Below, in pieces: positions 15,933 to 29,301 of a stretch of DNA of 64,000 nt. Numbering within the stretch: the stretch's first letter is position 1; each line of letters begins with the position of its first letter. Origin of the DNA: Nitrospira sp. (GTDB lineage Bacteria > Nitrospirota > Nitrospiria > Nitrospirales > Nitrospiraceae); contig JARFXR010000001.1 of the NCBI GenBank assembly GCA_029194535.1, forward strand, positions 186,001-250,000, given 5' to 3'. The notes under the pieces were generated by a model. It worked only from the letters and a program-made list of their open reading frames with translations. It did not search any database and was not told the DNA's origin. The position numbers were made by a program, and so were the translations under genes.

Positions 15933-17021
15933 TCAATGAGGTTCAGAGAGGTCCTTCTGCGGTACGCTCAACGATCTGCGAATGTCTTCTACCGGCCTTT
16001 CGAAGTAGTCCCAGGGATCAAAATCTCGCCACATATCCCTGTTCACCCGGCAGCCACGAGCGAAGGCTGCGATCATCTTTTCAGGGTTCGCTTGCAGCGC
16101 CTGCGAGGGAGCGACCGGCGCGACTTGGATGTTCAGATGATACTGGGCCAAACCAAAGAGAATCCCAAAGATAGGATCCTCGAATTGGCAGCCGGCTTGA
16201 AAGGCGGCGATTTCAATCTCCTCCGTCGCCGTCGTCCCGTAGTCGCCGAGAATGTGCAGACAGTCATGTACGACGATGATTTCCGGGGCCGCGCCCTTTT
16301 CGCCAGGATAGGGAAAATTGTTCCGGTGCAGATAGTCCGTAAAGGCCCTGCCGAGTGTTCCGGTCGCATACTGATCCAAGTTCTTGTACTTGGCCGTCAC
16401 GTCAGGGAGTTGAACGCCGGCAAGGGGGAAGAACTGTTTGATCGCCGCGGCGATACCCCCGGACGTGACCGTCTGTCTGATTTTCACGCCCGGCAAGGAT
16501 CTTCTGATAATGTCGATCCTGGCAAGCAAGAGGTGCTTGTTCGCCAACTTCCAGGCCGTTTGTATCGGCCCCAGATCAGCCAGGAGCGCCGCCCCATATC
16601 GCTCAAGTCGAGCAACGGCATGCGTATCCATTTCTCCATCGATACAAGCCGCGACGATCCCGCCCCTGATGATGCGCTCTCTGAACTCCTGTTCGATGGC
16701 GGTTGTTGCAAGTTCTTCCGGAGAAATCCACTCCAACTGTTCCAATACGAAGCCGGTCTTCAAGATATGCTCCTGAACGCCCAGAAGCAGCCGGCGTTGT
16801 AGATCCGACAGCTCTCTGTCCGGTGATCCGATGCACACGGACTTGATCGTGCGCAGACCCGTGCGCGCGACACTCTCTGGGACCGGACTGAGTTTCATGA
16901 GATCGGCGGCTGCCTTCTTGTTTCGGGGAAGTAATCCGGCGGCAAACGCCCCTCCGATACGTGGTACGGGGTCTTGCAGACCACTTGCGCCTGTCGATGG
17001 AGTTTCATCGGCGGCCATCAT
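15933..17021 (-). CDS. TerB-like domain fused to Coq4-like metal-site domain
   Basis: About 362 aa, cytoplasmic. The N-terminal half resembles a TerB-type helical domain (GGIVAACIDGEMDTHAVARLE, the acidic DGE motif). The C-terminal half has HDCLHILGDYGTTATEE, the HDxxH-x11-E metal-binding motif of Coq4, a ubiquinone-synthesis protein. The first of two adjacent ATGs at 17021 is used; no ribosome site is seen, and a perfect 8-bp hairpin (CACCACGG/CCGTGGTG, 17024-17046) sits directly upstream. Whether it acts on quinones is unknown. The Coq4 call rests on the motif and helix pattern only. Confidence 0.6.
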   Translation of the reverse strand: MMAADETPSTGASGLQDPVPRIGGAFAAGLLPRNKKAAADLMKLSPVPESVARTGLRTIKSVCIGSPDRELSDLQRRLLLGVQEHILKTGFVLEQLEWISPEELATTAIEQEFRERIIRGGIVAACIDGEMDTHAVARLERYGAALLADLGPIQTAWKLANKHLLLARIDIIRRSLPGVKIRQTVTSGGIAAAIKQFFPLAGVQLPDVTAKYKNLDQYATGTLGRAFTDYLHRNNFPYPGEKGAAPEIIVVHDCLHILGDYGTTATEEIEIAAFQAGCQFEDPIFGILFGLAQYHLNIQVAPVAPSQALQANPEKMIAAFARGCRVNRDMWRDFDPWDYFERPVEDIRRSLSVPQKDLSEPH

Positions 17022-17216
17022 AGCACCACGGAGCCCACCCGTGGTGGGCCAGTGTCCGAACAGCTTCGACCGGTGAGATGTCCTTCTGATCGTCTTGGTA
17101 GATCCCGGGGTCTCCCGACCTTGCTGCGGGAGCACAGGCAGGCGACTCCCCAGACAGGACTTGCACCCGCAAGATTCCCGGCACATTTTCAAGGGGGGGG
17201 GGCTGAACAATGCAGG

Positions 17217-18485
17217 TCAACGGGACAGGCCGAGTACCACCGATAACGGGATGGCCCATATCCGATCGGCGAGCCGTTCCGCCCGCGGTCCGGTGTGAAT
17301 CAAGATTCCATGAGGCGCGCCTCGCTTATACTCATCCAGGAAGAGACGCAAATGGGCGATATCGCCTGACTGTGGCCGACTCGTCGCCTTGATTTCAACC
17401 GGAACCACGGTTCCTTCCCGCTCGATGACGAAATCCACCTCCGCCCCGCCGGCCGTCCTCCAATACAGCACTTCGGGCTTCGGTGTCACGGATTCCCGCC
17501 AGGTGAGCAGATCGCTGAACACCAACGTCTCAAGCAAAGGGCCGCGCAAGCCGGCCTTGTCCAGGTCAGCCTCGGAGGTGACTCCCGAGAGAAATGCCGC
17601 AAGGCCGCTATCGCAGAAGAAGAGTCGGGGAGTCTTGATCAGCCGCTTCGTGCGATTGACCGCATAGGCGGGAAGCCGATGGAGCAGATAGGACGCTTCC
17701 AGAAGATTGAGGTACCGATGCGCCGTCGGCTGGGATAACCCCACGTCACGGGCCAGCTCAGTCTGGTTGACGAGCGCGCCTGATCGCAGCGCAGCCGCGC
17801 GCATGAGCCGCCGGAAATCGATCAGATTCTCGATCGTCGAAAGAGCCTGGAGATCCCGCTCCAGATACGTGCGAACATACCCATCCAGCCATGCTCGCTG
17901 CACGGACGGCTCCATGTCCAAGACGGTCGGCGGAAACCCGCTCTGCAAGACCCGCTGACCCAGATCCGAGACCGGGGCGTGGGTACCTTCGAATTGCGAC
18001 GGGTCGGCCAAGACTTGCTTCCACTGGCCGACGGTCCCGAGTCCCGCACGTTCCGCTGGGGTAAGGGGATACAACGTCAGGTAGATCGCGCGACCAGCCA
18101 GTGTTTCAGACACAGTGCGGAGCAGTGCAAGATTGGCGGATCCGGAGAGGAGATATCGTCCAAGTTTACGCTCTCGATCCACCGCTCGCTTGATGGCCAG
18201 GAGCAGCTTCGGGCTCCGCTGGATTTCGTCAATGGCGATCGGTCGCTTGCCGAATACCAGGGTCTCAGGCTCTCGCTCAGCCAGATCGAGTACGTCGATG
18301 TCGTCCAGCGTGCGGTAGTCCCGGCCGGACTCGGGAAGTAATTCTCGGATCAGGGTACTCTTTCCCGTCTGTCTGGCCCCAGTCACAATGACCACGGGAA
18401 ACGCCTTGAGCGCGCGGACTACGGTCGCTGTAAGATGCCGGGGGAGTGTGGTTTTATGATCATTCACGCCATGAATGATAATCAT
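17217..18485 (-). CDS. AAA ATPase with DUF4143 domain
   Basis: A 422-aa ATP-binding protein of the COG1373 group. Walker A is VTGARQTGKSTLIRELL, Walker B is PIAIDEIQRSPKLL, with the sensor motif LLSGSANLALL. The C-terminal DUF4143 half includes a winged-helix part (NQTELARDVGLSQPTAHRYL) and a PD-(D/E)XK-like core (AEVDFVIEREG, VPVEIKA). Role unknown; these genes are common in accessory DNA. The ATG at 18485 lies inside a 37-bp palindrome; a GTG at 18467 is an alternative start. No ribosome site is visible. Confidence 0.85.
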   Translation of the reverse strand: MIIIHGVNDHKTTLPRHLTATVVRALKAFPVVIVTGARQTGKSTLIRELLPESGRDYRTLDDIDVLDLAEREPETLVFGKRPIAIDEIQRSPKLLLAIKRAVDRERKLGRYLLSGSANLALLRTVSETLAGRAIYLTLYPLTPAERAGLGTVGQWKQVLADPSQFEGTHAPVSDLGQRVLQSGFPPTVLDMEPSVQRAWLDGYVRTYLERDLQALSTIENLIDFRRLMRAAALRSGALVNQTELARDVGLSQPTAHRYLNLLEASYLLHRLPAYAVNRTKRLIKTPRLFFCDSGLAAFLSGVTSEADLDKAGLRGPLLETLVFSDLLTWRESVTPKPEVLYWRTAGGAEVDFVIEREGTVVPVEIKATSRPQSGDIAHLRLFLDEYKRGAPHGILIHTGPRAERLADRIWAIPLSVVLGLSR

Positions 18486-18541: not shown

Positions 18542-18696
18542 CTAGAATCTACCTCAAAATGGGCGTTCCGGTCAGAACTGGTCATGCCCGCGAAAGCGGG
18601 CATCCAGAATGTCCTGAAAAGACTGGATTCCCGCCTGCGCGGGAATGACGACCACAGATTCCATCCCATCATGAAGGAAATTGAGATAGGTTCTAG
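18542..18696. mobile_element. MITE-like element, copy 1
   Basis: A 155-bp unit bounded by inverted ends CTAGAATCTACCTCAAA and TTGAGATAGGTTCTAG. Inside are two hairpins (CCCGCGAAAGCGGG and CCCGCCTGCGCGGG). It is nearly identical over its whole length to the unit at 41889-42044, and half of it recurs at 43441-43507. It encodes no transposase. Confidence 0.8.
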
Positions 18697-18718
18697 TCTC
18701 CTCCGACAACAGAGTCAG

Positions 18719-18961
18719 CTACGCTACATTGAGCGGTCTAGCGCAGAGCACTTCGTCTTCGCGGAGGCCTTCGAGGGCGGAGGCAGAAACAGTGGTAACA
18801 GCGATCGTGTTGCCAACAGCGTTGAAGACTTCGATGGAGTAGCCCTCTGCGCCATCAGGCGCGGTGTGATGGTCCACCAGTTTCACGACGTCGCCCCGTC
18901 GGAGCCGATATTCTGGCAGATCGCGCGTCAACGCCACGTCCGTGTAGAGCTCAAACTTCAT
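18719..18961 (-). CDS. DUF4926 protein
   Basis: An 80-aa protein matching DUF4926: YRLRRGDVVKLVDHH, then GYSIEVFNAVGNTIAVTTV. Small beta-rich proteins of this family usually follow a DUF6883 gene and are suspected antitoxin or immunity partners. Here the upstream partner survives only as a 40-residue C-terminal piece that overlaps this start as ATGA. AAGGGGGTG lies upstream of the ATG. The MITE-like element ends 22 bp beyond the stop. Confidence 0.78.
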   Translation of the reverse strand: MKFELYTDVALTRDLPEYRLRRGDVVKLVDHHTAPDGAEGYSIEVFNAVGNTIAVTTVSASALEGLREDEVLCARPLNVA

Positions 18962-19080
18962 CGTGATGCACCCCCTTTATCGGGAATCAGTGTAACGACC
19001 TTCGTGATGCCCGACAAGTGTTCTGTCATCCAGACGCTGCGAATGGGTAAAGCCACGCCATTTGGGCCAATCAGCGTTCC
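18958..19080 (-). pseudogene. 3' remnant of a DUF6883-type gene
   Basis: A frame of 40 codons reads GTLIGPNGVALPIRSVWMTE and ends TKVVTLIPDKGGASR, the expected C-terminus of DUF6883 proteins, and its TGA overlaps the ATG of the DUF4926 gene. A stop lies directly upstream in this frame and the N-terminal part is gone. Sequence before it belongs to a different gene (next entry), so this is a deletion junction. Confidence 0.6.
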
Positions 19081-19081
19081 T

Positions 19082-19129
19082 CACTTCCGGCAATACCGGC
19101 GTCGTTGCATTGTGGTCGAGATGGATCAT
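19082..19129 (-). pseudogene. 5' remnant of a cysteine desulfurase (NifS/IscS-type) gene
   Basis: ATG-started codons give MIHLDHNATTPVLPEV, the conserved N-terminus of class V aminotransferase cysteine desulfurases. Homology stops after 16 residues, exactly where the DUF6883 remnant begins two bases on. The piece is too short to function. A chance match is unlikely given the signature. Confidence 0.55.
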
Positions 19130-19231
19130 TGCAGGGCGCTTATCCTAGGCACCTGCAGCAGAGAGTGCAAGATTCCCCTCCTTCTGGCGACTTATCAGTA
19201 AATGAGATTGCAAGCGAAAGGAGTGAAATCA

Positions 19232-19417
19232 ATGAGACTCAAATCGAAGCAGAGCGACTGGCTCGATTCGAAAGCAGCGCGCAAGGAACTTAAAGTTTCC
19301 GCCTGCGACCTTTCTCACATCCGTGAAACAGGAGAGCTGCGTTTCCGGAAAGACAGGAATGCCTATCGCTATCTGAAAAAAGATGTGTGGGACTTGAGGA
19401 AGGCCAAGGAGAAGTGA
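19232..19417 (+). CDS. Small basic helix-turn-helix-like protein, 61 aa
   Basis: Encodes a lysine-rich protein with DWLDSKAARKELKVSACDLS, then HIRETGELRFRKDRNAYRYL, the layout of an excisionase/MerR-like winged helix (helix, turn, helix, basic wing). AAAGGAG eight bases upstream sets the ATG at 19232. Such proteins often lie in mobile or accessory regions. No integrase is nearby. Function as a DNA-binding regulator is inferred. Confidence 0.6.
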   Translation: MRLKSKQSDWLDSKAARKELKVSACDLSHIRETGELRFRKDRNAYRYLKKDVWDLRKAKEK

Positions 19418-19469
19418 TTTCCTGATCCTGTGTCCGGATGGAGGAAATTGTCCGAGGTGGCAGAACAGC

Positions 19470-19748
19470 CTATGAACGTCGCTTGCTGAGACGTCTCAGG
19501 CTGTGCAGGTCTCCAACGATGAGGGCTTCCTTTTTTGCTCGACTCCAGTTCTTGAGCTGCCTCTCTCTCCGGATCGCTGCTTCTTCGCTGAGAAATGGTT
19601 CTGAATACACCAACCGGACGGGCCCGCGTTTGAATGTGTACGCGGCTCCTCGGCCTTCGTTATGCACCGTCACGCGACCATGAAGATCCTGCGTCGTGCC
19701 CACATAGAGGCTGCCATCAGCGCAGCGGAGAATGTACGCGTAAAACAT
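19470..19748 (-). CDS. GIY-YIG domain protein (UPF0213/YhbQ-like)
   Basis: A 92-aa single-domain GIY-YIG nuclease fold: FYAYILRCADGSLYVGTTQD carries the YxY...YVG pattern, followed by R in LHGRVTVHNEGRGAAYT and the catalytic E in SEEAAIRRERQLKNWSRAKK. Usual length for the family. The start at 19748 matches homologues; a longer frame upstream runs through repeat sequence. Nuclease activity and target are unknown for most members. Confidence 0.85.
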   Translation of the reverse strand: MFYAYILRCADGSLYVGTTQDLHGRVTVHNEGRGAAYTFKRGPVRLVYSEPFLSEEAAIRRERQLKNWSRAKKEALIVGDLHSLRRLSKRRS

Positions 19749-19843
19749 TGGAACCGGACGCCCCTCGACTCGCTCGACCATTCTCGGAATCGACCTTAAG
19801 CGAAGTCGAAGGGCCGCCTCGTTCCGTCTCGCTCGCTCGGGGC

Positions 19844-19936
19844 ACCATTCGACTCGCAGTGATGGTGTCCTGAGCAATTCCCAGATGGCCTGCCATGAGC
19901 GAGCCCTGAGCTGATCGAAGGGCGAGTCGAATGGTG
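19844..19936. repeat. 93-bp unit with perfect 15-bp inverted ends
   Basis: CACCATTCGACTCGC at the left is exactly reversed as GCGAGTCGAATGGTG at the right. The interior (GAGCGAGCCCTGAGCTGATCG part) resembles widespread short palindromic intergenic repeats. No coding capacity. Confidence 0.6.
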
Positions 19937-20608
19937 GACCCTCTTGCAGCGGGCTCGAACCTTCTTCGAGTCGCAAAGCCCCTGATCCTCTCGTTCGGAC
20001 CGCTTGAACGCCTGTCACGCCCCTTGCGTTCTTCTATTGGATTTAGACTTGAGGTGGCAAGGGGGCGTGCCAGGCGCGTTCTGCCTCGGTCACTCGCCTT
20101 GCAGAGGCGCTGAGGGTCTCTGTCCTCGGGCTTCAGCCCCTAAAGGTCTTCCGCTCCCTGCGGGCCGAGCCCCTCTGGTGCCGCAAGGCTCGAGCCCTCG
20201 GCTTCCGGGCCGCGCAGAACTTTTCGGACTCTGAACCACGCCAGCGAGCGCCGCCCATGTGTCAGCCCCGCCCTGGAGAATCAGGCAAACGACATCAACA
20301 CCAAAGAGTTCGCGGGAGACTGCTTGCGGCAGACTCCCGCACTCCAGACCATGAACGTGTGTGGCTTCGTGGCATGCGCCACCAAGCCCAACCTTTCATT
20401 CACGGCCCTCCACCCACTCGGCAGTCTCAGTCGGGTGACTTCGACAAACCTGGCGGATTCCGCTCGCACCCTTGGTGAGCCCGCCCTCTGGTAAAGCGAG
20501 TGACGCTCGATGTCCCTAGCCCATTGATTTCTTGAGTTATTTGACGTATCTGTCTACCGGCGAATGTCCTGTAAGGCTGCCCTCTAGTAGGAGGCATACT
20601 CTCCAGTC
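19937..20608. other. Stretch without a gene before the helicase
   Basis: About 670 bp with no supported gene. A + frame from about 20278 to 20490 has natural-looking composition (for example NDINTKEFAGDCLRQT, CGFVACATKPNLSF) but no start context and no family I recognise; the opposite strand is also open. AGTAGGAGG at 20587-20595 is the likely, rather distant, ribosome site of the next gene. Confidence 0.35.
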
Positions 20609-23600
20609 ATGTCCTCTGACCTGACCTTTATCACCAACGAGCCCGGCAAGAGCCTCCGTGACCGTTTCGGGGTCTTGCTAGGTCACGGTACGCGGTACTT
20701 CGACTGCTTAGTGGGGTATTTCTTCATCAGTGGCTTTTACAAGCTCTACCCAGCCTTGGAGAAAGTTGAGAAGGTCCGCATCCTCGTCGGACTTCAGACG
20801 GATCGCGCAGCCTACGAACTGCTGGAAAAGGCCAAAGAAAAAGGTGAGCTGCATCTAAAATCTCACGCTTCGGCGAAAGAGCAAGTAACGCAGGATGTCC
20901 TTGCTGAGCTGGCAAAGTCTGCTGATACCACTGAAATCGATACGGGCGTTCACAAGTTCGTCGAATGGATTCGTTCAGGCAAACTCGAAGTCAGGGCGCA
21001 CCCCTCTGCGAACCTGCACGCAAAAGTGTACATCATGACATTTGCGGAGGGTGACCGGGACAAGGGCCGTGTCATCACCGGCTCCAGCAACCTGTCCCAG
21101 TCAGGGCTTCAGGACAATCTGGAATTCAACGTCGAACTCAAGAACAGGTCTGATTACGATTTTGCCATCGAGAACTTCAATGAACTCTGGGCGATGGCAG
21201 TCGATGTCTCCAAACCTTACGAAGACACGGTTATCAACAAGTCGCCCTATGCGCATTTCACACCCTATGAACTCTACCTCAAGTTCCTGTACGAGTACTT
21301 TCAAGGCGAACTCAACCGTCCATCGGAACTGGAGGATATGTATGTGCCCAACGGGTTCAAGAAACTGAAGTACCAGGAGGAAGCCGTTCTGAGTATTCGA
21401 AAGGTCCTCGACGAATATGGCGGAGCGTTCCTCTCCGATGTCGTTGGACTGGGCAAGACCTACATGGCTGCACTGCTCGCCCAGCAGCTTGATGGCCGTT
21501 GCTTAGTCATCGCTCCACCGCATCTGCTCGACAAGAACAATCCAGGCTCATGGCCCAACGTGTTCGGAGACTTCCACGTCCCCCACACGGATTTCGAGTC
21601 CTCCGGAAAACTCGACGCGCTCTTGGAGCGGGACGTTTCCAAGTACACAAACGTCTTCATTGACGAGTCGCACCGCTTCCGCACCGAAACCAACCAGACG
21701 TACGAGATGCTGGCGCAAATCTGCCGAGGCAAACGTGTGATTCTGGTTTCTGCCACTCCGCTTAACAACACGCCGCGAGACATCTTGAGTCAGATTAAGC
21801 TGTTCCAACCCGGGAAGAACAGCTATATACCTAACGTCCGAAATCTCGAAGCATTCTTCTCCAAACTCGAAAAGAATCTGGGCGATCTCGACCGGCAGCA
21901 TGATCGAGAGGAGTACTTCAAGCATGTGAAAGCGAATGCCAAGGCCACGCGGGAGAAGATTTTGAAATACCTCATGGTCCGCCGCACCCGCAGCGAGATT
22001 GTGAAGTACTATGGAGAAGATTTGAGTCGGCAGGGCTTGAAGTTCCCCGATGTGGCCGATCCAAAGCCGCTGTTCTACACGTTCAGCAAAACTGAAAACG
22101 CAATTTTCACCGAGACCATTCGCCTGTTGGTCCAGGAGTTCACATACGCTCGCTACAAGCCATTAACCTATTACGAAGGCAAGCACGAAGAGCGTGAAGT
22201 GCAGAGCCAGCGCAACCTGGCGAAGTTCATGAAAATCCTGATCGTCAAACGTCTGGAAAGCAGTTTCTATGCGTTCCGACTCACGCTCGATCGATTCATT
22301 AAATCCTACGCACGGGTCATCGAGGAGTTCGGCAAAGGCCATGTCTATATCAGCAAACAATATATCAATAAGATTTTTGACCTCCTCGAAAGCGACGATC
22401 AGGAGGCGATCGATCAACTGCTCTCCGAGGATAAGGCCGAAAAGCTAAATGCGAAGGACTTTTCGTCCGGGTTCATCGGCGACTTGAAGAACGACCTCAC
22501 AATCCTCCGTACAATCGAAAAGCACTGGAAGCAAATCTCACGCGATCCCAAGTGGGAGGCGTTTCGTGAAATTCTCATCACCACGAAGGCCCTGAAAGGC
22601 GGCAAACTGATTATCTTCACGGAGTCCAGGGAAACAGCCGAGTATCTCGCAGATCGCATCGCCAATGAGGTCGAGCCCAAGGTGGTACTGTTCACGGGGC
22701 ATTCCGATGACGCCGTTCGCAAGCACGTCATCGCCAACTTCGACGCCAGAGCCTTTCAATCGAAAAACGACTATCGGATCCTTGTATCGACCGAAGTGCT
22801 CTCCGAAGGCGTGAACCTGCACCGATCCAACATCGTCATCAATTATGACATCCCATGGAATCCCACGAGATTGATCCAGCGAGTCGGTCGCATCAATCGC
22901 GTGGATACCAAGTTTGACACGATTCACACCTACAATTTCTTTCCCACCGAAGAGGGCAATGACCTTATTAAGCTGAAAGAAGCGGCTGAGGCCAAGATTC
23001 ATGCGTTCATCGAAATGCTCGGTGCGGATGCGAGACTGCTGACCGAGGGGGAGGAGATCAAGTCGTATGACCTCTTTGCCCAGTTAAACTCTAAGAAGAC
23101 AATCACGGGCGAGGACGGAGAGGAAGACAGCGAACTGGAATACCTCACGGAAATCCGGGAAGTCCGCGACAAGAACCCGGAGCTATTTACGAGGATCAAG
23201 CAGCTTCCGAAGAAAGCTCGATCCTCTAGAATGCTAGAAGCTAACCCTGCTTCAACGATCAATCAACTCCCGGCGTTGCTGACCTATTTCCGTCAGGGCC
23301 GACTCGATAAGTTCTTTGCAGCTCATCCTGGTGCCCATGACGCAATAGAGGTAGACTTCTTTGCCGCTGCACAGATCCTCAAGCCTCATGACACTGCTGA
23401 AGCACGGCAGACCATTTCACAGGACTTCTATGCGCTGCTCGACAAGAACAAAGAGGCTTTCACGGCGGCAACGAGCCCGTCGAACGACGATGCCTCATCC
23501 CAACACAAAGGCGGTGCGAACGATGCCTACATTCTCAAACGTCTCAGGGCCAAAGACATTCGCCACTACCACGGATTCACAGAGGAGGACGAGGAGTATC

Positions 23601-23824
23601 TCCAGCAGGTCGTCCAACTCCTGAACGACGGCGCGCTTCCTCGACCGACCACGAAGAAGGTCGCAGAGGCGCTGAAAAAAGAACTCGAACCCCTAAAGGT
23701 TTTAGGCATCCTTCGGCGAGACATCCCTTCGCAACTGTTCCAGCCCACGCGGGCTCAACGGACGTTCCACGCGCTCAGTCCGCGCGAGGTCATTCTCTCG
23801 TCCTACCTGGTGCAAGCCAAATGA
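20609..23824 (+). CDS. SNF2-type helicase with N-terminal PLD (HKD) nuclease domain
   Basis: A 1071-aa protein. Residues 1-190 are a phospholipase-D-like domain with H137-A-K139 and GSSN at 158-161. An SF2 motor follows: Walker A DVVGLGKT (K283), DESH box at 352-355, SATPLNN, and the C-terminal lobe with STEVLSEGVNLHRSN and QRVGRINR. The C-terminal quarter is unclassified. Its stop overlaps the next gene's ATG (ATGA), so the two are translationally coupled. Read together they look like the restriction half of a restriction-modification system, with PLD as the candidate nuclease. DrmA/DrmB (DUF1998) of DISARM and PglZ/BrxC of BREX are absent. Confidence 0.85.
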   Translation: MSSDLTFITNEPGKSLRDRFGVLLGHGTRYFDCLVGYFFISGFYKLYPALEKVEKVRILVGLQTDRAAYELLEKAKEKGELHLKSHASAKEQVTQDVLAELAKSADTTEIDTGVHKFVEWIRSGKLEVRAHPSANLHAKVYIMTFAEGDRDKGRVITGSSNLSQSGLQDNLEFNVELKNRSDYDFAIENFNELWAMAVDVSKPYEDTVINKSPYAHFTPYELYLKFLYEYFQGELNRPSELEDMYVPNGFKKLKYQEEAVLSIRKVLDEYGGAFLSDVVGLGKTYMAALLAQQLDGRCLVIAPPHLLDKNNPGSWPNVFGDFHVPHTDFESSGKLDALLERDVSKYTNVFIDESHRFRTETNQTYEMLAQICRGKRVILVSATPLNNTPRDILSQIKLFQPGKNSYIPNVRNLEAFFSKLEKNLGDLDRQHDREEYFKHVKANAKATREKILKYLMVRRTRSEIVKYYGEDLSRQGLKFPDVADPKPLFYTFSKTENAIFTETIRLLVQEFTYARYKPLTYYEGKHEEREVQSQRNLAKFMKILIVKRLESSFYAFRLTLDRFIKSYARVIEEFGKGHVYISKQYINKIFDLLESDDQEAIDQLLSEDKAEKLNAKDFSSGFIGDLKNDLTILRTIEKHWKQISRDPKWEAFREILITTKALKGGKLIIFTESRETAEYLADRIANEVEPKVVLFTGHSDDAVRKHVIANFDARAFQSKNDYRILVSTEVLSEGVNLHRSNIVINYDIPWNPTRLIQRVGRINRVDTKFDTIHTYNFFPTEEGNDLIKLKEAAEAKIHAFIEMLGADARLLTEGEEIKSYDLFAQLNSKKTITGEDGEEDSELEYLTEIREVRDKNPELFTRIKQLPKKARSSRMLEANPASTINQLPALLTYFRQGRLDKFFAAHPGAHDAIEVDFFAAAQILKPHDTAEARQTISQDFYALLDKNKEAFTAATSPSNDDASSQHKGGANDAYILKRLRAKDIRHYHGFTEEDEEYLQQVVQLLNDGALPRPTTKKVAEALKKELEPLKVLGILRRDIPSQLFQPTRAQRTFHALSPREVILSSYLVQAK

Positions 23825-26800
23825 ACCGAGACCAAGCGCGCGCGCTCGTCCGGGACACGTTTACCCGCTCGTTCGACAAGGCCGGCTTCCGCAACTTCGC
23901 CATCAACCTCCTCAACAAGTTCGACGAGTCGAAAGCCTTTTTCTGCAACAGCACCTATGTCAAGGATGCCTTCAAGGAGCACGTCTCGCGTTTCGAACGA
24001 CTCGGCACCTACACGTCGCCTGAAAGCGAAAAGCTCGACGTGCTCATCGTGCACCTGACGAACGAATCCAAATTGGAGCGCGCACGCACGGCAATCCGCA
24101 ACTTCGTCGCGGATCATCTTAAACAACATGACAACAAAGACGCCGCGCTCGTCGCCTTCGTTTCACCCACCGAGCAACAGTGGCGGTTCTCGTACGTTAA
24201 GATGGAGTATGCCACGGTTCAGAAGGAGTCCGGCAAGATTGGTGTGGAATCACGCTTGACGCCGGCCCGGCGCTTCTCCTACATCGTCGGCGAAGGCGAG
24301 AGCTGCCACACGGCACAAACCCGCTTTCTCGATTTGCTGCAGGACACGGAGAACAATCCCACGCTCGCGCTAATCGAGGATGCCTTCAGCGTCGAGGCTG
24401 TCACCAAAGAATTTTTCGCCCAATACCGGAAGCTCTTCGAGGACATCAACGCTGGGCTGGACAAGTTGGCAGTGAAAGACAAGGCCATTCGCGACGAGTT
24501 CCAGAAGAAGCACGTCAAGGCCGTGGACTTTGCCAAGAAGCTCATGGGTCAGGTTGTATTCCTGTACTTCCTTCAGAAGAAAGGCTGGCTCGGTGTCGCC
24601 AAGGGAAAGGATTGGGGCACTGGCCCACATGATTTCCTGCGTCGGCTTGCCGGCGGCAAATACGGTTCTTACGAAAACCTCTTCAACGACATCCTCGAAC
24701 CGCTCTTCTACGACACCCTGGCGACCGACCGGGGACACGAGGCCTGGTGCAATCGTTTCCAGTCCCGCATTCCGTTCCTCAACGGCGGTTTGTTCGAACC
24801 GCTTGGCAATTACAACTGGAAGAAGACCGACATCATTCTGCCGAACACACTGTTCACGAATTCTGAGTTCGTCGAGGAGAGCATCACTGGCACAGGCGTC
24901 CTCGACGTGTTCGACCGCTACAACTTCACCGTCAACGAGGCCGAGCCACTGGAAAAAGAAGTGGCCATTGACCCGGAAATGCTTGGGAAGGTCTTTGAAA
25001 ACCTCATCGAGGACAATCGCCGCAAAGGTCTCGGCTCCTATTACACGCCGCGCGAAATCGTCCATTACATGTGTCAGGAAAGTCTCATTAATTACCTCGA
25101 TACCGCGCTCAACACGGCAGAGGAATCTCCCATCCCGACAAATCCCAAACAAACCACGCTTCTCGGCGAGCCAGAACCGGAACAAACCGGACTCAAAACA
25201 ACCGTGCGACGCGAAATAATTTCGCGTGGAGAAATTGAGGCCTTTGTCCATCTCGGCGAACAAGCATCGCTCTTCGAAACCGCACGACTGTCAGGAACCG
25301 TCAGCTACAGACCGCAACTGCCCAAAAGCATCGAGGAGCACGCGCGACTGATTGACGAAAAACTGGCCGACATCACCGTCTGCGATCCTGCCGTCGGATC
25401 AGGAGCCTTTCCGGTGGGAATGATGACGGAGATTGTCCGCGCGCGCTCCGCGCTCACGCCTTACTTCAACGACGTGCACGACCGCACGCCTTACCACTTC
25501 AAGCGCCACGCCATCCAGAACTGTCTGTACGGCGTGGACATTGACCCCGGCGCGGTCGAAATCGCGAAGCTCCGCCTCTGGCTCTCGCTCGTTGTGGACG
25601 AGGAGGACGTGAAACAGATCAAGCCGCTGCCGAACCTGTTCTACAAAGTCGTCACCGGTAACTCGCTGCTAGGCGTGGAGAAGAACCTATTCAACGAACG
25701 GATTTTCCAGCGGCTTGAAGAACTGAAGCCGCGTTACTTCGACGAGCCGGACAAGGACAAGAAAGATCGCTACAAGCAGCAGATTGACGACACCATCCAC
25801 GAACTGACCAACGGCAAGGAGGATTTCGACTTCGAGATTTATTTCTCGGAAGTGTTCCATCGTAAAGGCGGCTTTGATGTGCTGATCGCCAATCCACCGT
25901 ATGGGGCCGACTTGTCGGAATTTGAACGGAGACGACTCGAAAACAAGTTCCCATTTGTCCCAGATTACGAATCATACGATTATTTCATTTGTATTGGACT
26001 GGAGCTACTAACAACTGGAGGATTTGAATGCTTTATTGTGCCAAATACTTGGTTGATAAATCGGTATGCGAAAAGGTTCCGTAATCATTTACTTGAAACG
26101 TACACCATCCTTCGCATCGACGACTGTTCGGATTTTTCTGTATTTGAATCTGCAAATGTCCGTAACACTATAACTATGTTGTCAAAGACGCCTCCGGCTT
26201 CTAATTACGCGCTGCGGCTATCACTGTTTTCCTCATTAAAGGGTCATATTCAGTCCAAGGATGTTGAGTCTAAGGAATTGCGAGTAAGGTTAGATAATTG
26301 GTTAACCTCTTTTTCTGCAGCGGACAGTAAGATTGTGCTAGCGGATAAAATTCGAAACCAGGGGACACCGTTAAGCGATTTTGCTGACAGTTCTCAAGGT
26401 TTAATACCATACGACAAATATCGAGGCCATAATGAATATACGATCAAAAACCGTATATGGCACGCCACTAGGAAGAAAAACAAAACATATCGCCGGGAGT
26501 TACAAGGTAAAGATGTGGACCGATATTTGGTTCAATGGAATGGAGAGACATGGATTAGTTACGGCATTTGGCTGGCTGCCCCTAGAGAGCCACGTTTCTT
26601 TAAATCCGAGCGCATTTTGATACGAGAGATTACAAATCCTCGCATCCTGGCTGGATATACAAAGGAGGAATTTTACAATACACCTTCAATCATAAATGTC
26701 GTTTCATTCAAAAAACTATCTCCTTTCTTCATCCTAGGATTAATTAATTCTCGCCTTCTTTCTTTTTATCATTTCGAAACTTCTCCAAAATCTAAGAAGG

Positions 26801-27033
26801 GACTATTCCCGAAAATCCTTGTTAATGATGTTAGATGTCTTCCCATTAAGGACGTGTCGTCAAAAGTCCAAGCGCCTATTATTGAATTAGTAAAATCAAT
26901 CCTCAAAGATAAGGAACGCGATCCTAGCAGTGATACTACAGATAAAGACCGGGAGATCGACCAGTTGGTCTATGCGCTCTACGGCCTGACGCCGGACGAG
27001 ATCAAGCTCGTCGAGGATAACGCTCAAAGATGA
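23821..27033 (+). CDS. Eco57I-type N6-adenine DNA methyltransferase with C-terminal specificity region
   Basis: A 1070-aa methyltransferase. YYTPREIV at 407-414, the SAM motif DPAVGSGAF at 522-530, GVDIDPGAVEIAKLRLWLS, and the catalytic NPPY at 691-694. After the catalytic motif, residues about 702-1038 are the target-recognition region, including NSRLLSFYHFETSPKSKKG-type sequence as in TaqI-like specificity domains. The first 350 residues are of unknown fold. It overlaps the helicase stop by 4 bp. The recognition part is strikingly AT-rich, unlike the flanks. The obvious role is self-marking for the coupled PLD-helicase. Confidence 0.88.
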   Translation: MNRDQARALVRDTFTRSFDKAGFRNFAINLLNKFDESKAFFCNSTYVKDAFKEHVSRFERLGTYTSPESEKLDVLIVHLTNESKLERARTAIRNFVADHLKQHDNKDAALVAFVSPTEQQWRFSYVKMEYATVQKESGKIGVESRLTPARRFSYIVGEGESCHTAQTRFLDLLQDTENNPTLALIEDAFSVEAVTKEFFAQYRKLFEDINAGLDKLAVKDKAIRDEFQKKHVKAVDFAKKLMGQVVFLYFLQKKGWLGVAKGKDWGTGPHDFLRRLAGGKYGSYENLFNDILEPLFYDTLATDRGHEAWCNRFQSRIPFLNGGLFEPLGNYNWKKTDIILPNTLFTNSEFVEESITGTGVLDVFDRYNFTVNEAEPLEKEVAIDPEMLGKVFENLIEDNRRKGLGSYYTPREIVHYMCQESLINYLDTALNTAEESPIPTNPKQTTLLGEPEPEQTGLKTTVRREIISRGEIEAFVHLGEQASLFETARLSGTVSYRPQLPKSIEEHARLIDEKLADITVCDPAVGSGAFPVGMMTEIVRARSALTPYFNDVHDRTPYHFKRHAIQNCLYGVDIDPGAVEIAKLRLWLSLVVDEEDVKQIKPLPNLFYKVVTGNSLLGVEKNLFNERIFQRLEELKPRYFDEPDKDKKDRYKQQIDDTIHELTNGKEDFDFEIYFSEVFHRKGGFDVLIANPPYGADLSEFERRRLENKFPFVPDYESYDYFICIGLELLTTGGFECFIVPNTWLINRYAKRFRNHLLETYTILRIDDCSDFSVFESANVRNTITMLSKTPPASNYALRLSLFSSLKGHIQSKDVESKELRVRLDNWLTSFSAADSKIVLADKIRNQGTPLSDFADSSQGLIPYDKYRGHNEYTIKNRIWHATRKKNKTYRRELQGKDVDRYLVQWNGETWISYGIWLAAPREPRFFKSERILIREITNPRILAGYTKEEFYNTPSIINVVSFKKLSPFFILGLINSRLLSFYHFETSPKSKKGLFPKILVNDVRCLPIKDVSSKVQAPIIELVKSILKDKERDPSSDTTDKDREIDQLVYALYGLTPDEIKLVEDNAQR
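25925..26935 (+). other. AT-rich insert-like segment = specificity region of the methyltransferase
   Basis: Codon choice changes abruptly about 35 bp after the NPPY codons, from GC-ending to A/T-ending (many aat, att, tta, aaa), and changes back at about 26935 where GACCGGGAGATCGACCAG resumes. The frame is intact throughout. This fits replacement of the target-recognition domain by horizontal exchange. Confidence 0.7.
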
Positions 27034-27138
27034 TCTCGTTGCGGGCGCGGGGTTTACGGTGGGGGTTTCCCGCCTCATGGAAGACAGGATTGATATACTG
27101 AGGCCCTCCGATCCCGGCATGATCTGAACGGACGAGCT

Positions 27139-28356
27139 ATGGCAGCATCAATTCCAGCGATGGTGACTCCAGCCCTACTCAAGTGGGCGCGGAAAGAAAG
27201 CGGTTATGACCCCGAGCCGGCCGCGAAACGGGCTGGTGTGCACGCTGACAAACTTCTTGCGTGGGAACAGGGTGACGCCAAGCCGACGCTGCGCCAGGCG
27301 CAGGCGCTCGCCAAGCTCTATCACCGGCCACTGGGCCTGTTCTTCTTGCCACAGCCTCCTTCGCTTCCTCCACTCGCTGCAGAGTATCGGCGTCTGCCGG
27401 GGATTGAACCAGGGGCGGAATCGCCTGAATTGCGGCTCGCGCTTCGAGTCATGTCTCAACGACGAGAAGTAACGCTTGAGTTGAGCGGTGAATTGGACCA
27501 TACCGTACCGGAGTTCACTGTCGCACTCCATCCATCCGATCCCCCTGTGGCTGCGGGGGCACGGCTGCGGACTGTGCTCGGCATTACTCCAGAGGAGCAA
27601 TTGGAGTGGGCAAATGAATGGCAGGCGTGGAGGAGTTGGCGTGAAGCGGTGGAGCGCATCGGTGCTCTCGTCTTTCAATTTCCCAAGGTTGATCTAAAGC
27701 AAGTGCGGGGTGTGGCACTTCCGATTTTTCCGCTACCCGCCATCGGAATTAACAGCAAGGAGTCTTCGGCTGCCGCGCGTTCTTATACTCTGATGCACGA
27801 GTTGGTGCATGTGGCCCTTGTGTACGGGCATGAGGAGGACGTGGCTCTGCGCGAGCGTCGCAGTGAAGCAAGGTGGCAAGAGATGGAACGCTTTGCCGAG
27901 GAAGTCGCGAGCGCAGTGCTCATTCCTGATGAGATGTTGGGTGGATTCTTGGGGAAGATGTCCGTGGCGCGTGATGCGTGGGACGTGCCCCTGGTGAGGA
28001 AACTGGCCACTGCATTTCGAGTCACGCCGCTGGCGATGGCGACGCGCTTGCGTTCAACCGGTGCATTGACGTGGAACGGCTACAGGTCGTGGAGAGAAAA
28101 ATGGGATGCTTACGTGGACACATTGAAGCCGCGCAAAGGTGGTCCTGTCTCACCAGTGGATAAGACCTTAGGCCGCGCAGGCCGTCCCTTTGCCCAACTG
28201 GTATTGGAAGCATTGGATGCCAACCGAATCACCTCGGTAGATGCCAGTCGATATCTTGACCTTCGTTTTGATTATGTCCAGACCCTTCGTCAGCAGTTGT
28301 TCAAGGGGCCAGGCGGAGGATCCGGGGGATCTGATGGTGGAGACGATGGCGACTGA
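27139..28356 (+). CDS. XRE-type HTH plus ImmA/IrrE metallopeptidase
   Basis: A 405-aa two-domain regulator. The N-terminal helix-turn-helix (PEPAAKRAGVHADKLLAWEQ) is followed by the COG2856 spacer (LGLFFLPQPPSLPPL) and a Zn-peptidase centre H220ELVH224 in LMHELVHVAL, with a downstream glutamate in ERFAEEVASAVLIP. The tail is Gly/Asp-rich. ImmA/IrrE enzymes cleave repressors to switch on mobile or stress genes. It lies 105 bp after the methyltransferase and 17 bp before DUF4411, with which it is commonly paired. No strong ribosome site is visible; the ATG at 27160 is an alternative. Confidence 0.85.
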   Translation: MAASIPAMVTPALLKWARKESGYDPEPAAKRAGVHADKLLAWEQGDAKPTLRQAQALAKLYHRPLGLFFLPQPPSLPPLAAEYRRLPGIEPGAESPELRLALRVMSQRREVTLELSGELDHTVPEFTVALHPSDPPVAAGARLRTVLGITPEEQLEWANEWQAWRSWREAVERIGALVFQFPKVDLKQVRGVALPIFPLPAIGINSKESSAAARSYTLMHELVHVALVYGHEEDVALRERRSEARWQEMERFAEEVASAVLIPDEMLGGFLGKMSVARDAWDVPLVRKLATAFRVTPLAMATRLRSTGALTWNGYRSWREKWDAYVDTLKPRKGGPVSPVDKTLGRAGRPFAQLVLEALDANRITSVDASRYLDLRFDYVQTLRQQLFKGPGGGSGGSDGGDDGD

Positions 28357-28373
28357 AAAGGATAGATCCGCCC

Positions 28374-28847
28374 GTGTACTCCGTTGATACGAGTTTCTTC
28401 ATGGATTGGCAGGCCCGGTATTATCCGCTGGATGTATTCGCGACTTTAAACACACGGATCGAGCAACTCATCAAGACCGGCAACTTCAAAGCCGTTGAGT
28501 TGGTCAAGGAGGAGATCAATGCGATCGGAACGCCTGACCTGAAGACATGGGCTGGCAGCCATAAGACTCTCTTTGCCCCTCTCACCCCCGATGTCCAGCT
28601 CGAAGCCGCCGCCATTGAAGCAAAGTACCCTGACTTGCTGGATGTCAAAAGCCCCCATCAATCGGCTGATGCCTATGTGATTGCATTCGCAAAACTCCAA
28701 AGCGGCATCGTTATCTCGCAAGAGACCTCTGCTCATGAAAAGCGAAATCCCAAGAAGAACCACTACATCCCCGATGTCTGCCGTGACCTCGGCATCCCTT
28801 GCATCAATCTTCTTGGTTTAATGCGGAAAGAGAAATGGAAGTTCTGA
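28374..28847 (+). CDS. DUF4411 protein (PIN-like)
   Basis: A 157-aa protein starting at GTG: YSVDTSFFMDWQARYYP carries the first acidic residue typical of PIN-like nucleases, VKEEI the second, and SADAYVIAFA plus the late HYIPDVCRDLGIPCINLLGL match DUF4411. The family is suspected to be an RNase toxin working with the preceding XRE-ImmA/IrrE gene. Spacing of 17 bp supports one operon. AAGGA lies 13 bases upstream, a little far. It ends about 100 bp from the tmRNA 3' end on the opposite strand. Confidence 0.78.
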   Translation: MYSVDTSFFMDWQARYYPLDVFATLNTRIEQLIKTGNFKAVELVKEEINAIGTPDLKTWAGSHKTLFAPLTPDVQLEAAAIEAKYPDLLDVKSPHQSADAYVIAFAKLQSGIVISQETSAHEKRNPKKNHYIPDVCRDLGIPCINLLGLMRKEKWKF

Positions 28848-28890
28848 ATTTAAGCTTGGTATCAGAAAGTAAAACCACTAGAGGTGTTTA

Positions 28891-28936
28891 TCCGGCGGCG
28901 TCAATGAAGAGAGGCTTCGCCTGATGAGCCGCCGGA
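28891..28936. terminator. Inverted repeat between DUF4411 and ssrA
   Basis: TCCGGCGGC and GCCGCCGGA form perfect 9-bp arms, and GAAG/CTTC pair inside. Beside it CGCAC-GAA-GTGCG (28938-28950) is a second small hairpin directly after the tmRNA CCA end. Convergent genes end here, so a two-way terminator is likely. Confidence 0.55.
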
Positions 28937-28953: not shown

Positions 28954-29301
28954 TGGTGGAGGCGAGGGGAGTTGAACCCCTGTCCGAAGATCGTCGGCAC
29001 ACCGGATCTACATGTGTAGCCGATAGTTTAAGTTTCGCAGCCACCCACGCCCATCGGCTGGCTTAGAATGGCCGCTAGCCCAGAAAGTTCTCGTCCTCAG
29101 CCGCTGAGCACCGGCGTTGGACCAGCCCGCTGCATCGCGCCATTCCACCCCCGCGGGCCTCAGATGGAACGACGTCACAGCTTATTAAGCTGCGAGTGCC
29201 AGTTCTTGATTGGCAGTTGCATTTTCCCGGAGTTGTACGAGTCCCCGAGAGCTCGACATGCACCGATGGCGTCAGTATCCCCGTCGAAACCGGTCGCCCC
29301 C
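28954..29301 (-). ncRNA. ssrA: Transfer-messenger RNA (ssrA), 348 nt
   Basis: The 5' end GGGGGCG pairs with the 3' CGCCTCC before ACCA (encoded CCA at 28954-28956). The T arm is AGGGG-TTCAACT-CCCCT. The conserved GACCGGTTTCGACGGGG block follows the 5' stem. The tag frame at 29220-29185 starts at the resume codon GCA and reads ATANQELALAA, ending in TAATAA, with the standard LAA protease signal. One-piece tmRNA. It rescues stalled ribosomes with SmpB. A 120-bp repeat starts only 9 bp upstream of the mature 5' end. Confidence 0.95.

Follow-up and report, generated by a model that had tools for sequence, protein, structure and literature searches.

A TerB-like/Coq4-like fusion protein with a complete Coq4-type metal motif in Nitrospira

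Introduction

What does a Coq4-like metal site do in a member of the Nitrospiraceae, and what does it gain from being joined to a TerB-like domain? The question is raised by a gene in the stretch of 64,000 nucleotides analyzed here (the window), where the open reading frame as given (P0001) occupies 15933..17021 of the minus strand and encodes 362 amino acids. A preliminary description of the sequence had read its C-terminal HDxxH-x11-E motif as the Coq4 metal site and its N-terminal half as TerB-like, and had reasoned that a host making menaquinone instead of ubiquinone would need another substrate for a Coq4-like domain. Coq4 was long a puzzling component of coenzyme Q synthesis, and C1 decarboxylation was assigned to it only recently, according to PMC7615680 and PMC11495197.

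Profile comparisons and a predicted model together show a two-domain protein, in which a TerB-like module is linked to a Coq4-like module with an intact putative metal site. This fusion is a new architecture of the Coq4 kind. No title on a TerB-Coq4 fusion was found in the open-licence literature, as judged by titles, and no Pfam or NCBIfam model covers the whole protein.

Gene Structure and Selection

The frame runs uninterrupted on the minus strand from 17021 to 15933, and the gene is real. Translation probably starts at the ATG at 16898 (residue 42) rather than at 17021, which would give a coding sequence of 321 amino acids (15933..16898, minus strand). This start is preferred because Met42 adjoins the first methionine of most relatives in the alignment and because the predicted model has pLDDT values below 50 at residues 1-4 and 6-33; a search for a clear ribosome-binding site that would decide between the two starts found none. 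The frame is also open further upstream of 17021, up to a TTG at 17210, which makes the gene start uncertain, and a run of C lies at about 17193-17202 within this upstream open frame.

Neither the protein search nor the profile search found a second match in the same genome. A decayed copy of the same subfamily occurs in another genome of the genus (G004), with 74% identity over 97 residues. Comparison of the two over 87 codons (of the 88 aligned, the one that contains a stop was skipped) counted 38 synonymous against 24 nonsynonymous differences and gave an omega of about 0.08, an approximate value given that dS, at 1.6, is near saturation. This shows purifying selection on the window gene, which has accordingly been maintained as a protein during most of the time since its split from the G004 copy.

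Relatives and Phylogeny

A first scan of genome contigs with the single window protein as query returned no matches, and an NCBIfam scan of the protein was likewise empty. Of 61 genomes searched, including that of the window, 12 contained a match, and an alignment-based scan of a species-level genome collection recovered 59 loci. The hosts of these fusion loci are Nitrospira and other Nitrospirota, Myxococcota, Synechococcus, one Rokuibacteriota genome and many Alphaproteobacteria (Reyranella, Enhydrobacter, Methylocystis, Xanthobacter and others); a further locus of the scan is a short deltaproteobacterial fragment. Our reference alignment (A2, n=48) combined the window protein with 14 proteins from the related-genome search and 33 of the 59 loci. 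The remaining 26 loci, which were same-contig duplicates, fragments or additional close relatives, were left out, as was the decayed copy L013.

The distribution of the fusion is patchy. A profile search of the Nitrospiraceae found it in 40 of 175 genomes and in 8 of 22 genera, and in 33 of the 114 genomes with a completeness of 90% or more and a contamination of no more than 5%. Several of the 40 (G003, G254, G258, G277, G318 and G400) carry only fragments or split copies. When the phylum was sampled, all 22 genomes with a match (out of 295) fell within the Nitrospiraceae.

In a tree of the aligned proteins, two clades come from Nitrospira: clade A, and clade B, which is nested in a larger clade of mainly alphaproteobacterial proteins. 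The window protein and three Myxococcota sequences make up a loose group C, the branches of which are long and the placement of which is unsure. The closest relative, from a member of the Polyangia (Myxococcota; L032), is 36-38% identical to the window protein and is joined to it with support of 100/99. Removal of L032 left the window protein grouped with the two other Myxococcota sequences, and an AU test rejected its placement inside Nitrospira clade A (p 0.003). We do not claim a transfer from Myxococcota, given the long branches and the risk of false joins in the tree.

The Coq4-like Domain

The Coq4-like domain, delimited by fold and profile, spans residues of about 205-355 (15957..16409, minus strand). 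It carries the metal motif HDxxH-x11-E as H252, D253, H256 and E268 (16218..16268, minus strand), which aligns with the same motif in 6E12, a solved Coq4 homolog. The motif is complete in all 48 aligned members, and its four ligands are among only ten invariant columns of the alignment. The motif alone is not rare: it arose in 125 of 200,000 shuffles of the window protein, a rate at which two or three motif-bearing proteins would be expected by chance per assumed 4,000 proteins. It carries weight because it is complete in every member and because the region that holds it matches Coq4 structures in both profile and fold. A further histidine, His295 (16137..16139, minus strand), is conserved in 44 of the 47 sequences filled at that column.

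The window protein scores 19.6 bits against the Coq4 family PF05019 (E 6e-4), under the curated cut-off of 22.9 bits, which none of the ten relatives scanned singly reached either. At E<=0.1 the family matches 44 of the 48 members, with a best E of 1.8e-5. The single protein gave only three chance-level matches to the sequences of solved structures. The A2 profile found three matches among all PDB sequences at an E limit of 10, namely 6E12, 3MSQ and 2OU3, and its C-terminal half matched 6E12 at E 1.2e-8 and 3MSQ at E 1.1e-7.

Structure prediction points the same way. The model of the window protein has a mean pLDDT of 84.9 and a pTM of 0.83, and the top three Foldseek hits were chains of 6E12 and 3MSQ (E 7e-4 to 2e-3). 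Structural re-alignment gave Z scores of 11.7 for 6E12 (4.5 A over 145 residues) and 9.6 for 3MSQ (4.1 A over 138), values that, being under about 13, may reflect an arrangement common to helical bundles. The first structure outside Coq4 and TerB follows only at Z 4.3, and it is this gap, together with the independent profile evidence, that makes both domain assignments firm. The comparison with Coq4 that the preliminary description had proposed thus found a Coq4 fold around the motif and no different one, and its reading of the motif as a Coq4 metal site is backed by profile, fold and conservation alike.

The window protein shares with Coq4 (Alr8543, 6E12; Npun02000094, 3MSQ) both the fold and the spacing of the motif. 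It differs in its additional N-terminal domain, in its score under the PF05019 cut-off and in its host family, which lacks the tested ubiquinone genes (see below). Neither solved structure has a histidine at the aligned place of the conserved His295. Since 6E12 and 3MSQ both come from Nostoc, a Coq4 homolog outside the ubiquinone makers is not in itself new.

The TerB-like Domain

The TerB-like helical domain covers residues of about 44-160 (16542..16892, minus strand) and was recognized from fold, from profile and from PF05099 matches in relatives. The window protein itself has no PF05099 match at E<=1 in Pfam; the family lies above its cut-off in six of the ten relatives scanned singly, and a TerB match at E<=0.1 is present in 18 of the 48 members. 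The TerB structure 2OU3 was matched weakly by the N-terminal half of the whole A2 profile (E 0.12). With the N-terminal profile alone it became the top match (E 0.016), followed from E 0.58 by four unrelated ones.

Re-alignment of the whole model gave Z 8.9 for 2OU3 (4.9 A over 140 residues) and Z 8.5 for 2H5N (3.6 A over 114), which we take to be a TerB-like structure. The N-terminal part modeled alone (pLDDT 88.4) again resembled 2H5N at Z 9.2, with the next structure at 4.8, although the Foldseek E-value of this partial model was just 0.16. The absence of 2OU3 from the fold list obtained with the partial model is not evidence against the TerB assignment. Profile and fold therefore bear out the earlier reading of this half.

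The window protein keeps the helical fold of TerB and departs from it in other respects: it lacks a Pfam match, has no ter neighbors, and has an altered first acidic loop (ADGxLDxxE in clade A), a change also seen in the alphaproteobacterial members. No ter families were present among the scanned neighbors of the window gene or of its relatives. DjlA, which presumably contains a TerB part, offers a parallel. NF006948, the model of DjlA-type TerB-DnaJ proteins, matches 4 of the 48 members weakly (best E 0.0028), and these fusions likewise carry TerB as an N-terminal module, but their partner domain is DnaJ, whereas in the window protein it is Coq4-like.

Genomic Context

Clade A was sampled in 29 loci (those more than 50% identical to the reference across the matched region, with the fragment L088 excluded), or 25 distinct loci once four twice-present contigs were removed and with the reference loci counted. 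A gene for a GAF-sigma54 activator accompanies the fusion in 24 of the 25; it is missing in L022, lies downstream in L045 and in some is truncated where the contig ends. An RND pump is encoded in 18 of the 25, in most cases only about 30% identical to the reference pump, and genes for an MFP and an outer-membrane channel (OEP) occur in some. A VTT-rhodanese or DUF3313 gene lies between activator and fusion in many of the loci.

Of the 20 loci examined, 16 have a -24/-12-like (sigma54-like) site 143-186 bp past the activator stop, compared with a background of 0 to 0.05 matches per 300 bp in the same loci; L039, L041, L042 and L044 had no match. The pattern was drawn from the sites first seen and then tested by position, and is in this sense post hoc. 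In single-locus shuffle tests p was <=0.05 in only 8 of the 20, and the site counts because its distance from the activator is nearly constant. These observations suggest a dedicated sigma54 control of the clade A operon. In L017, L021 and most of L033-L055 the site stands ahead of the VTT-rhodanese or DUF3313 gene and the fusion, often with an MFP/RND/OEP operon.

The window copy has a different setting. Like the alphaproteobacterial and Myxococcota loci, it lies outside activator or pump clusters, and no good sigma54-like site was found upstream of it. The clade A context can therefore be extended to the window copy by homology only. Six neighbors of the window gene were tested and had no syntenic match in the other loci, the one exception being a weak DUF4143 hit, and the 369-aa gene downstream has no Pfam or NCBIfam match. 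Directly upstream, at 17217-18485, is an AAA/DUF4143 ATPase that strongly matches the PADLOC candidate PDC-S01 (E 9e-123).

A stretch of low GC content (0.50-0.56 in 2-kb bins) extends from 18600 to 28900, and the window gene lies outside it. It encodes a PLD/SNF2 helicase (20609-23824), a type IIG restriction-modification protein (23821-27033), an HTH and IrrE/M78 protein (27139-28356) and a DUF4411 protein (28374-28847), and it ends at the tmRNA gene ssrA (28954-29301, minus strand). It looks like a defense island at ssrA. The window protein had no match in plasmids, phages, PHROGs or PADLOC, and none in viral contigs by a search sensitive to close relatives only. A role in mobile elements or defense was rejected on the grounds of these missing matches and of the position of the gene outside the defense-like stretch.

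Quinones of the Host Family

The host family, the Nitrospiraceae, includes Candidatus Nitrospira defluvii. Chemical analysis of two cultured species, N. inopinata and N. moscoviensis, rather than of the window's own organism, is reported in PMC12324825 to show methyl-plastoquinones only, with neither menaquinone nor ubiquinone. Two overlapping sets, each of nine genomes of the family, were searched for quinone genes, one for futalosine enzymes and COQ7 and the other for the remaining models. Futalosine enzymes were found in none of nine genomes, and the MenD model stayed under its cut-off in nine of nine; it also matched all 14 control genomes, in seven of them over the cut-off, and the sub-threshold matches are probably other ThDP enzymes. 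The premise of a menaquinone host was thus abandoned, on the strength of these searches and of the quinone chemistry of the two species.

The check for ubiquinone genes that had been proposed argues against a host with a ubiquinone pathway. COQ7 was absent from nine of nine genomes. The Ubi-OHase model remained below its cut-off in nine of nine, yet gave a near full-length match in each (E 1e-28 to 1e-38); at E<=0.001 both this model and that of MenD match every one of the 14 controls, and sub-threshold matches are therefore hardly informative. UbiD was found in none of nine genomes (G000, G001, G004, G007, G016, G017, G024, G026 and G034) with TIGR00148, which was positive in 9 of 14 controls, and PF01977, positive in 10 of 14, had no match over cut-off in the nine and one at chance level (E 0.5). 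The broad UbiA family was over cut-off in all nine, as in all 14 controls, and is not specific. A search of the window's genome for canonical Coq4 (PF05019) found none at E<=0.001; it also missed the window gene and is thus insensitive here.

As the two cultures analyzed contain neither menaquinone nor ubiquinone, the Coq4-like domain probably has a substrate that is not a ubiquinone precursor. This part of the earlier argument stands, and the part that made menaquinone the host's alternative was wrong. The presence of UbiA homologs in all nine genomes with no UbiD over cut-off makes a UbiD-independent decarboxylation conceivable. The negative UbiD result is, however, at odds with a plain UbiD homolog among MpqA-MpqE, the homologs of UbiA-UbiE that PMC13386864 names in the methyl-plastoquinone pathway.

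Proposed Function and Alternatives

The biochemistry of COQ4 offers more than one precedent. The animal protein is described in PMC7615680 as a Zn-dependent C1 decarboxylase in vitro, the metal-site double mutants of which gave no product, and other work assigns a one-step oxidative decarboxylation to human COQ4 (PMC11495197, PMC12938788). As site and fold are shared, the most economical assumption would be a metal-dependent reaction on lipidic or prenylated aromatics. We tentatively favor, at somewhat less than even confidence, an accessory metal-dependent enzyme of the Coq4 type that would act on such aromatics under the regulation of its TerB half. The protein would be soluble or peripheral to the membrane. 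A divalent metal, Zn2+ or Mg2+, would be held by H252, D253, H256 and E268, and a prenylated or other lipidic aromatic compound would lie in the hydrophobic groove of the Coq4 half and lose its ring carboxylate, with or without hydroxylation. Candidate substrates would be an intermediate of the methyl-plastoquinone pathway, a side product related to quinones or an aromatic of foreign origin, and the TerB half may serve as a regulatory or docking module, possibly one responsive to metals.

Nitrospira, Alphaproteobacteria, Synechococcus and Myxococcota are expected to make different quinones. Spread over such hosts and patchy in its presence, the fusion would play an accessory role in the response to envelope or quinone stress, with apparent inducibility in the Nitrospira sister clade, and would not be an obligatory step of the host's quinone pathway. 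Counted against this preferred reading are the missed PF05019 cut-off, the altered acidic loop of TerB and the window copy's lack of activator and efflux neighbors and of an upstream sigma54-like site, as well as the proposal that Coq4 acts mainly as an organizer of the CoQ complex (PMC11495197).

That last proposal lends itself to a non-catalytic reading, in which the Coq4 half binds a quinone or lipid and the TerB half relays a signal or organizes a membrane complex. The Nostoc homolog 6E12 holds Mg2+ and oleic acid, according to PMC9774615, and in the Nitrospira sister clade the fusion adjoins a regulator and VTT-rhodanese or DUF3313 genes, as would suit a sensor or scaffold. A pure binder, however, need not keep four metal ligands invariant in 48 of 48 members, and we consider this reading possible but doubtful. 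The frequent pumps and activators of clade A, with MFP and outer-membrane channel genes in some loci, would also fit an enzyme that detoxifies foreign aromatic or hydrophobic compounds in partnership with the adjoining RND pump. The low identity of most pumps to the reference indicates that they are not one conserved partner, and the window, alphaproteobacterial and Myxococcota copies have no such clusters, which renders detoxification unlikely.

Could the fusion instead replace UbiD as the C1 decarboxylase of methyl-plastoquinone synthesis in the host? Animal COQ4 does carry out this step in the account of PMC7615680, and the combination of UbiA homologs with no UbiD over cut-off by either model leaves room for it. 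The fusion cannot be a general answer to the missing UbiD, because G007 and G017 have neither fusion nor UbiD match, and it is not a core quinone enzyme, because just 40 of the 175 family genomes carry it, several of them in split or partial form. Moreover, MpqA-MpqE either conflict with the UbiD result or make the fusion unnecessary (PMC13386864), and a replacement of this kind appears quite improbable. The split and partial copies, the decayed G004 copy and the long tree branch of the window protein might also mark a functionless gene on its way out, but the open frame, the full set of motif residues and the low omega make this very hard to credit. A bolder form of the preferred enzymatic reading would have the TerB-fused family decarboxylate prenylated hydroxybenzoates or similar aromatics, oxidatively or not, independently of UbiD in hosts with different quinones, with the Nitrospira sister clade forming a sigma54-switched, stress-inducible benzoquinone branch; we regard it as speculative and rather unlikely.

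Implications

The fusion family brings together a full metal site and a TerB module in hosts without the tested ubiquinone genes. Its members are expressible models for the function of the Coq4 fold outside ubiquinone, and they allow one to ask whether this fold can replace UbiD.
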